A stretch of 39,872 nt of DNA from Candidatus Shapirobacteria bacterium (GTDB lineage: Bacteria > Patescibacteriota > Microgenomatia > UBA12405): positions 1 through 39,872 of the forward strand of contig JAQVSI010000007.1 of NCBI GenBank assembly GCA_028700625.1, in the 5' to 3' direction. The position numbers and the translations under genes are program-made. The notes beneath the pieces are model-generated. The model ran no database searches and had not been told where the DNA came from. It was given only the letters and a program-made list of their open reading frames with translations. Each line of letters starts with the position of its first letter. Positions within the stretch are counted from its first letter, which is position 1. Positions 31,634 through 33,318 of the stretch are shown here, piece by piece.

Positions 31634-31658
31634 TTTTTATTTTTCTAAATTTTACAAT

Positions 31659-31686
31659 AAAAATCCCCTAAAACAGGGGATTTTTT
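31659..31686 (+). terminator. Strong intrinsic terminator T1
   Basis: AAAAATCCCC pairs with GGGGATTTTT around a 7-base loop, and a T-run forms the distal arm. It follows the CarD-like gene. The stem is nearly identical to T2 and T3. Confidence 0.85.
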
Positions 31687-31758
31687 CATTTGCGGACAAT
31701 GTGGTCCGAACTTGGAACATATTTGACACAATTTGAATTTATAAGCAACACTCTTATA

Positions 31759-31787
31759 TTGAAAGTATGATTAAAAAGTAATATAAT
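31759..31787 (+). promoter_or_regulatory. Sigma70-type promoter of cassette 1
   Basis: TTGAAA (31759-31764), a 17-base spacer, and TATAAT (31782-31787). After it comes CATTATCCGTTAAA, shared with cassette 2. The leader is about 18 bases. Confidence 0.75.
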
Positions 31788-31812
31788 CAACATTATCCGT
31801 TAAAGTTAAAAA

Positions 31813-32364
31813 ATGAACAGAGAAATTGAAAGTTTTTTTAATAAATTAAACGATGTTACAAATAATCTTGAAAATAAGAAACAGGAAGAAGAAATAAGAA
31901 TACAAGAAAAAGAAAGAAAAATAAAAGAATTAAGTAATAGAACAAAAAAAGATTTAGACCAACTTGGTGTGTATAAAATTTTCAAAAAAATAAGGAATAA
32001 CAATATTTTGACTCTTGAGGAAAGTTATACAAAATACGGTGTTGGATATAACTATGTTCCGTGCGAAATAGAATTTTATCATTGTGAAGATGGTTCTTAT
32101 CTTGGTAAACATGGATATCGTTTGTCAATAAATCGATATACAACATGGAATGATGGTCAAGCCTATTGGAGTCATAACTCTATTAGAGTACTAAAAGATA
32201 AAGAAGAAAATTATTATGTTGGATATAAAGGAGAAGATGATTATCTTAAACAAAAAAAAGTAAAAAGAAATGAAGTTTTAGATACCCTTTTTGATGTTGT
32301 TACTCTTTGTAAAACTTATAAAGAACATGAATTAAAAAATCATCTTAATTCATTTTTTAAATAA
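31813..32364 (+). CDS. Cassette 1 hypothetical protein, coiled-coil N-terminus
   Basis: This 183-residue protein is not recognised. Residues ~1-50 are charged and helical (NNLENKKQEEEIRIQEKERK), a likely coiled coil. From about residue 65 the protein turns to an aromatic, probably beta-rich domain (YGVGYNYVPCEIEFYHCEDG, INRYTTWNDGQAYWSHNSIR). A short helical end follows. There is no signal peptide or membrane helix, so it is cytoplasmic. It has its own promoter and its own terminator, and no Shine-Dalgarno. Confidence 0.6.
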   Translation: MNREIESFFNKLNDVTNNLENKKQEEEIRIQEKERKIKELSNRTKKDLDQLGVYKIFKKIRNNNILTLEESYTKYGVGYNYVPCEIEFYHCEDGSYLGKHGYRLSINRYTTWNDGQAYWSHNSIRVLKDKEENYYVGYKGEDDYLKQKKVKRNEVLDTLFDVVTLCKTYKEHELKNHLNSFFK

Positions 32365-32382
32365 ATATATTTATAAGTAACT

Positions 32383-32411
32383 AAAAAATCCCCTAAAACA
32401 GGGGATTTTTT
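32383..32411 (+). terminator. Strong intrinsic terminator T2
   Basis: AAAAAATCCCC and GGGGATTTTTT form an 11-bp stem around a TAAAACA loop. It ends cassette 1 and is identical in stem and loop core to T1. Confidence 0.85.
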
Positions 32412-32530
32412 CATTTGCGGGAAGTGTGGGACGAGCTTGGAACGTTTTTGATAGAGTTTGAACATAAAAGTACTATTCCTATATTGAATGTATAATTAAT
32501 TAGTAATATAATCAATATTATCCGTTAAAA
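32384..32530 (+). repeat. Cassette flank repeat, copy B
   Basis: Second copy of the terminator-plus-promoter flank seen at 31659-31806. It keeps the TTTGCGG...TGTGG...CTTGGAAC segment, the promoter, and the ATTATCCGTTAAA leader motif. Confidence 0.85.
32484..32512 (+). promoter_or_regulatory. Sigma70-type promoter of cassette 2
   Basis: TTGAAT (32484-32489), a 17-base spacer, and TATAAT (32507-32512), followed by AATATTATCCGTTAAA. Same layout as cassette 1. Confidence 0.75.
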
Positions 32531-32540
32531 AAACAAAAAA

Positions 32541-33194
32541 ATGACAAACTGGGAAAGAGAAGTTAGTAGAATAAAAAATACACAACAAGTTGAAGAAAAT
32601 TCAAGAAGAGAAATTCAAAAACAAGAACAAGCACAAAAAGAGAGATTTATTCAAGAACAAACACAAAATGATTATGATAATATAGTCATTCCAGGATTTA
32701 AAGTTCTAGATAGTTTTAATATTAAAGAAACTTTAATTGAAATTAGAGATCAAGTTTGGAAAGTTGGAAAAATATCTAAAGAACCAAATAGTTTCGAGGA
32801 ATATAAAAAAAATAGATCTGAACAAATCGGAATTAAAGAAGCTGCATATAAATTAATTAGTCCTAAATTTTTAGGTTTTTCACCAGGAATTGACGGTTAC
32901 GATAACGATAGTTCTTCCCAAGACGAAGTAGGTGAAATAACAACATCTTTAACAATATCCTCAGATGGTGAATATATTAATATTGAAAGAGAAAAAATTA
33001 AAATAAGTGAAAAAAATCATTCAGAAATTCAAAAAATAATAAATGAAATATTAGTAAAAGACTGTATGAAAAGAAGAGATTATTCTAAAATAGATCCGAT
33101 AGTTTTTAATCACCCTGTATTACTACAAAGATATTATGATGAAAAATCAAGACAAAATCCTAAACGAAGTTTTTTAGATAAATTGTTTGGCTAA
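32541..33194 (+). CDS. Cassette 2 hypothetical protein, coiled-coil N-terminus
   Basis: This 217-residue protein is not recognised. Residues ~1-48 are a Gln/Glu/Arg-rich helix (QQVEENSRREIQKQEQAQKE), a likely coiled coil. The rest is mixed alpha/beta, with GFKVLDSFNIKETLIEIRDQ, an SPKFLGFSPGIDGYDND segment, and a basic C-terminus (PKRSFLDKLFG). It shares overall layout with the cassette 1 protein but shows no clear residue-level similarity by eye. It is cytoplasmic, has its own promoter and is followed by T3. Confidence 0.6.
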   Translation: MTNWEREVSRIKNTQQVEENSRREIQKQEQAQKERFIQEQTQNDYDNIVIPGFKVLDSFNIKETLIEIRDQVWKVGKISKEPNSFEEYKKNRSEQIGIKEAAYKLISPKFLGFSPGIDGYDNDSSSQDEVGEITTSLTISSDGEYINIEREKIKISEKNHSEIQKIINEILVKDCMKRRDYSKIDPIVFNHPVLLQRYYDEKSRQNPKRSFLDKLFG

Positions 33195-33210
33195 TTTTTA
33201 CTTAAGCATT

Positions 33211-33239
33211 AAAAAATCCCCTGAAATAGGGGATTTTTT
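33211..33239. terminator. Terminator T3, possibly bidirectional
   Basis: AAAAAATCCCC and GGGGATTTTTT surround a TGAAATA loop, differing from T2 only in the loop. It lies between cassette 2 and the convergent tRNA-Asp, and the A and T tracts let it work from both sides. Confidence 0.8.
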
Positions 33240-33244
33240 GTAAG

Positions 33245-33318
33245 CGGGCCCGATGGGATTCGAACCCACGATCTTCCGCGTGACAGGCGGATGTGCTAGA
33301 CCGCTGCACCACGAGCCC
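33245..33318 (-). tRNA. tRNA-Asp (GTC)
   Basis: The minus-strand cloverleaf has acceptor GGGCTCG/CGGGCCC with one T-G pair, D-arm GTGC...GCAC, anticodon stem TCCGC/GCGGA with loop CTGTCAC (anticodon GTC, complement of 33282-33284), T-arm GTGGG TTCGAAT CCCAT, and discriminator G. CCA is not encoded. Confidence 0.95.

Follow-up and report, generated by a model that had tools for sequence, protein, structure and literature searches.

Integron attC sites fold as single strands, and the SCC elements of Staphylococcus use serine recombinases (CcrAB), stack in tandem at one chromosomal site and have direct-repeat junctions. According to earlier descriptions, large serine recombinases (LSRs) do not target tRNA genes, and cassette arrays have been associated with tyrosine integrases. 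Indeed, the Islander study of 2014 states that no integrases other than tyrosine integrases are known to insert at tRNA genes (PMC4383910). To enter the TIGER/Islander resource, an element must have an integrase gene and measure at least 2 kb (PMC12424338), so that small cassettes devoid of integrase could have been missed. Among serine integrases, the rumA-specific enzymes of streptococcal ICEs have their att site in the 3′ end of the integrase gene, and integration swaps the integrase C-terminus with the target (PMC4701971).

Here, we describe a locus in a 39,872-nucleotide stretch of DNA from a Candidatus Shapirobacteria bacterium (hereafter, the window). This locus is very probably a tandem array of two non-autonomous cassettes that were inserted at the 3′ end of a tRNA-Asp gene by an LSR acting in trans. 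In the open-licence literature on this phylum, we found no earlier mention of LSR cassettes or of LSRs located at tRNA genes, an absence that is not in itself proof.

Results

An earlier note on this DNA had described a terminator, promoter and leader repeated in front of two different ORFs, with a third terminator copy behind them. This repetition is real: the two copies of the terminator and flank (31659-31806 and 32384-32529) are 84% identical over ~147 bases (E 1.3e-39) and can be extended to a direct repeat of 192 nt at 76% identity, while the third terminator copy lies at 33210-33239 (93% identity). When the whole 813-kb assembly was searched, the full flank was found as two copies, both in the window. 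Each unit does have its own terminator-like hairpin. The three hairpins show strong predicted folding (z about -3.2 to -4.7), are all built as A-tract/stem/T-tract and could terminate transcription in either direction. The promoter proposed for each unit stands in part: hexamers are found at equivalent places, but promoter-like sites are in total no more numerous than expected by chance (12 vs 9.5 in shuffles), so that the support lies in their conserved position. Altogether, the P′ arm defined below, the promoter and the leader are common to both units. Two features had escaped the earlier note, namely a tRNA-Asp gene abutting the third unit and the tail of a recombinase gene within the flank (Table 1).

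Table 1. Features of the cassette array at the tRNA-Asp gene of the window.
Feature	Positions	Strand	Remarks
Resident gene, 171 aa	31118-31633	+	weak CarD-like match; left of the array
Hairpin 1	31657-31691		left of junction 1; two-way terminator-like; z -4.5 (+), -3.2 (-)
Junction 1, core GCGG (31692-31695) and P′ arm	31692-31718	+	0 mismatches to att pattern
Putative cassette 1, 725 bp	31692-32416	+	P′ arm, promoter, cargo, hairpin; bounded by junctions 1 and 2
Promoter-like TTGAAA-17-TATAAT, cassette 1	31759-31787	+	11/12 match; conserved aligned position
Cargo ORF 1, 183 aa	31813-32364	+	orphan; helical N-terminus
Hairpin 2	32382-32416		right end of cassette 1
Junction 2, core GCGG and P′ arm	32417-32443	+	0 mismatches to att pattern; LSR frame LREVWDELGTFL
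Putative cassette 2, 827 bp	32417-33243	+	bounded by junction 2 and tRNA 3′ end
Promoter-like TTGAAT-17-TATAAT, cassette 2	32484-32512	+	10/12 match; conserved aligned position
Cargo ORF 2, 217 aa	32541-33194	+	orphan; helical N-terminus
Hairpin 3	33210-33243		right end of cassette 2; adjoins tRNA-Asp 3′ end
tRNA-Asp (GTC), presumed target	33244-33318	-	3′ end, GCGGGCC on + strand, is the outermost core

Within each flank copy lies an att junction in which the core GCGG is followed by GTGTGGNNCGANCTTGGAAC, the tail of an LSR gene. Bases 30-66 of the flank match the 3′ end of an LSR gene from a genome of the same genus, G007 (G007:C11:29154-29190; 37-nt match, 92%), whose product has Resolvase, Recombinase and zinc-ribbon domains; in the reading frame of this gene junction 1 reads LRTMWSELGTYL. 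This shared frame also accounts for a motif readable as CGxCGxxLE, and a zinc-finger remnant, which we had considered, was discarded. The core is at the same time the 3′ end of the tRNA-Asp gene, which begins GCGGGCCCGATGGG on the plus strand, the window junctions beginning GCGGACAATGTGG and GCGGGAAGTGTGG. Since in relatives of the same genus the LSR genes of the tRNA-Asp array run into the tRNA, the array of the window can be read as two single-gene cassettes that both lack an LSR.

We compared the tRNA-Asp 3′ flank among relatives of the same family and order. The site is empty in G014 and G015, where the upstream ndk-like gene ends 2-4 nt from tRNA-Asp, and in G028 and G012, where it ends 39 and 63 nt away. 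In relatives, homologs of the 171-aa resident gene are flanked by the ndk-like gene on one side and tRNA-Asp on the other. Several occupied sites show the order hairpin-GCGG-P′ arm, cargo gene, hairpin and tRNA-Asp. As cargo, G002 has a gene that weakly matches a TnsA-like nuclease, G027 a DUF2726 gene, to which a gene at tRNA-Asp in G004 is similar, and G007 a PH/SHOCT-domain gene; restriction-modification genes occur in the cassettes of some relatives. Thus, unrelated genes reside between the same flank elements, as the earlier note had anticipated in proposing an exchange of payloads between conserved flanks. For the DUF2726 cassette common to G004 and G027, horizontal transfer is not supported: its identity (65%) gives no transfer signal when compared with that of core genes (57-67%). 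A different cassette array is found on a 4.7-kb contig of the window's own assembly (C51; L036, G000:C51), where a coiled-coil gene precedes one for a type I/IIG-like methyltransferase. This contig probably comes from a contaminating related strain, as it carries a second ndk/LysM/ArsR block.

Intact LSR genes are present inside the same tRNA-Asp array in relatives of the same genus. G006 has a 496-codon LSR gene that terminates within tRNA-Asp, GKNDDFSVW being followed by RARWDSNPRSSA and the stop, and 4.6 kb upstream a truncated copy of this 3′ end continues into the P′ arm, GKNDDFSVW being followed there by RTIWDKIRIDLF. The bases that precede GCGG are identical at the two ends. As read from their sequences, these ends are an attL/attR pair, and the crossover would fall within the few bases common to the LSR gene, the P′ arm and the tRNA. 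G007 carries the same type of LSR, ending in tRNA-Asp, and there apparently three tandem elements, two of them with LSRs, lie between the resident genes and tRNA-Asp. Compared over their length, LSRs from Asp, Gln and Ser loci share 42-67% identity with each other and about 30-36% with the other LSR of G007. Elsewhere in the family, LSRs end in tRNA-Asn, or near tRNA-Ile/Met. The window's genome itself has LSR genes ending in tRNA-Tyr (G000:C37) and tRNA-Glu (G000:C48; loci L095 and L115), and their predicted C-termini are antisense tRNA sequence. Odd recombinase annotations with antisense-tRNA C-termini, such as RARWDSNPRSSA, are explained by LSR genes that end in tRNAs. The window's assembly was searched for an LSR close to the tRNA-Asp clade and gave none, its best match being about 31-36% identical; the array may thus be immobile at present unless a recombinase arrives. 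Finally, a gene for a REP_ORF2-G2P replication protein or a homolog lies just upstream of several LSRs (L039, L142, L148, L149), which suggests that the autonomous LSR-bearing elements could be integrating (rolling-circle) replicons.

The att pattern GCGGRNNRTGTGGDNCGANNTTGGAAC, searched with up to 2 mismatches, gave 33 matches in 20 of 373 genomes of the class vs 1 for the reversed pattern used as control, and 21 matches in 12 of 379 genomes of the phylum vs none for the control; this search is biased towards GCGG cores and covers mostly fragmented assemblies. When 84,980 species genomes were scanned for the exact pattern, 13 contigs were returned, including Shapirobacteria, Nomurabacteria, Moraniibacteriota and one labelled Micavibrio; the exact pattern was absent from the viral contigs. 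Outside the window's family, the 3′ end of a tRNA faces the motif at most 4 kb downstream at 20 of 31 loci, while the control placements gave 2, 6 and 2; the 11 loci with no facing tRNA within 4 kb include some at contig ends. The first bases of the junctions also match the local tRNA: over 35 loci the summed prefix match is 204, vs a mean of 155 and a maximum of 182 in 10,000 permutations (p=1e-4). Junctions start with GCTG at tRNA-Gln and with GCGA at a variant tRNA-Asp, and at tRNA-Leu one of two junctions starts with GTGC, like that tRNA.

Arrays occur both with and without an LSR. In the longest one (G161), five junctions (up to 3 mismatches) and a sixth at 5 mismatches are followed by an LSR running into tRNA-Gln. 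When the window locus is excluded, 32 of the 46 junction-junction or junction-tRNA intervals are under 1.3 kb. The 69 proteins that we scanned, mostly cargo with a few element genes, fall into 55 Pfam families, nearly all seen once. G002 has cargo with the TnsA-like match at tRNA-Asp, and G189, from a different family, has such cargo at two tRNA-Ser loci (45-48% identity), which suggests that a pool of cassettes may be common to several genomes.

Elsewhere in the arrays, small GIY-YIG-type nuclease genes recur beside the tRNA-proximal end (L143, L154, L104, L041, L044). At L179 (G498:C3), two adjacent cassettes are exactly 622 bp each, possibly a recent duplication. Some left arms of L144 and L145 (G334) hold an inverted copy, GTTCC, of the GGAAC of the P′ arm, hinting at a partly symmetric LSR site.

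In another reading, the cassettes are not mobile units but scars, left by ordinary LSR islands that stacked at tRNA-Asp and decayed to one gene each. G006 and G007 do have LSR-bearing elements stacked at this site, and both the truncated LSR of G006 and the LSR-less array of the window would suit such decay. We nonetheless hold it to be unlikely, given that so many cassettes are compact and carry one intact gene, that hairpin and core are separated by a short and regular spacing, and that a related cargo family is present at tRNA-Asp in one bacterial family and at tRNA-Ser in another. Insertion of the two cassettes by an LSR acting in trans remains our preferred reading.

The cargo proteins of the window were modelled with a mean pLDDT of 62 (183 aa) and 47 (217 aa). 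The earlier note had seen a common layout in them, with a coiled-coil N-terminus and a distinct C-terminal domain. While both start with a long predicted helix (residues 2-50 and 3-46, respectively), its confidence is high only over about the first 30-40 residues and the remainder of both models is of low confidence; the two proteins have no detectable sequence similarity (E 0.27), remote homology included. Neither gave a Pfam match above chance or a PADLOC or PHROG match, and a defence assignment was therefore rejected for both. ORF 2 has no relatives in viral contigs and no remote homology with the coiled-coil cargo of C51. According to the earlier note, a flank found only here, with the same two ORFs fixed in all relatives, would have pointed to a simple old duplication. 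The relatives show otherwise: in the 373 genomes of the class, neither ORF has homologs beyond weak coiled-coil-type matches.

The 84% identity of the flanks and the similar ORF layouts could also stem from a single gene that was long ago duplicated in tandem, terminator and promoter included, and whose coding parts have since diverged beyond recognition. Such an origin is however very improbable: such flanks beside coding parts without detectable similarity are hard to reach by divergence, the junction holds the tail of an LSR gene and adjoins a tRNA, and the same junctions bracket unrelated genes in relatives, which already disfavours this reading. Least probable of all is a host-encoded contingency or defence array in which homologous recombination through the conserved flanks swaps the payloads, since, while conserved flanks with variable genes and restriction-modification cargo in relatives would agree with it, the flanks of different genomes match over short stretches (23-66 nt), the first bases of the junctions match tRNA 3′ ends and many cargo families are unrelated to defence (including NUDIX, Na/Ca exchanger, DNA glycosylase and TspO). 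The contingency, toxin and adaptor frames of the earlier note likewise find no support, the flank being a junction of site-specific recombination beside a tRNA gene and its cargo being general.

Discussion

Insertion in trans by an LSR can be pictured as follows. In a circular cassette, attP would consist of the terminator hairpin (P arm), GCGG and the P′ arm (about GTGTGGGACGANCTTGGAAC), and would recombine with the tRNA 3′ end, the crossover falling within the few shared bases. The tRNA sequence would be kept by the insertion, because the core is made of its terminal bases. The hairpin of the cassette would end up beside the tRNA as a new two-way terminator, for tRNA and cargo transcripts, while the core and P′ arm would remain at the far junction. 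Repeated insertions would give stacked cassettes. The junctions, the tRNA adjacency and base matching, the empty sites, the LSR 3′ ends across the core and the unrelated cargo are direct observations; from them we infer catalysis by this LSR clade, circularisation of the cassettes and replacement of the tRNA terminator by the hairpins. No circular cassette intermediates were seen. It also counts against the model that the P arms differ, being a hairpin in cassettes and the 3′ end of the LSR gene in autonomous elements, that the window's assembly yielded no cognate LSR, that 11 of 31 loci lack a facing tRNA within 4 kb, and that the DUF2726 cassette gives no transfer signal.

Similar cassette arrays across the phylum look like a serine-recombinase counterpart of integrons. 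We lean, by a modest degree, towards a general form of this proposal for Patescibacteria, in which one LSR clade, with its att site in the 3′ end of its own gene, targets tRNA genes (those for Asp, Ser, Gln and possibly Leu) at their 3′ ends and moves compact, terminator-equipped and often single-gene cassettes in trans, building variable arrays that act as a shared gene pool. If true, such a phylum-wide LSR cassette system would explain how genes are gained and swapped in the reduced genomes of Patescibacteria. Accessory genes could then be found automatically, because recognisable junctions delimit every cassette, and the system predicts LSRs and sites of use in engineering.

As for genomic islands at tRNA genes, insertion takes place at the tRNA 3′ end, the tRNA stays intact, as in the window, tandem islands occur and relatives have empty sites. 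No tyrosine integrase, indeed no integrase at all, is present in the window array, and the relatives have LSRs. As to defence islands, no PADLOC match was obtained for either window ORF. The rumA ICEs offer a precedent for the exchange of the integrase C-terminus upon integration that is proposed for these LSR genes, but their target is a protein gene and the element a single large conjugative one, with no cassette arrays described there (PMC4701971). As in elements mobilised by LSRs, the core GCGG is common to the junctions, the tRNA 3′ end and the LSR gene 3′ ends.

SCC elements and these arrays share serine recombinases, tandem stacking and direct-repeat junctions. However, SCC elements carry their own ccr genes, span tens of kb and target the protein gene rlmH, whereas the cassettes described here are mostly under 1.3 kb, recombinase-less and located at tRNA genes; the window array has no recombinase gene and its target is tRNA-Asp, not rlmH. 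Integrons likewise are arrays of compact, mostly single-gene cassettes between recombination sites with very diverse cargo, as in the 46 cassettes counted here (32 under 1.3 kb). They have the recombinase gene at one end of the array, as in G161, and recombinase-less arrays exist, as in the window. In contrast, their recombinase is of the tyrosine IntI type, while Resolvase/Recombinase-domain serine enzymes are found in the related arrays here. Their attC sites are folded, while the junctions here are short, linear, conserved and match the tRNA end, and are read as double-strand att sites; what folds in the window are hairpins that resemble terminators. Unlike integrons, these arrays are anchored at tRNA genes, and the window cassettes carry their own promoters. 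By analogy, the arrays would work like an integron or an SCC array, yet they fall under the definition of neither.
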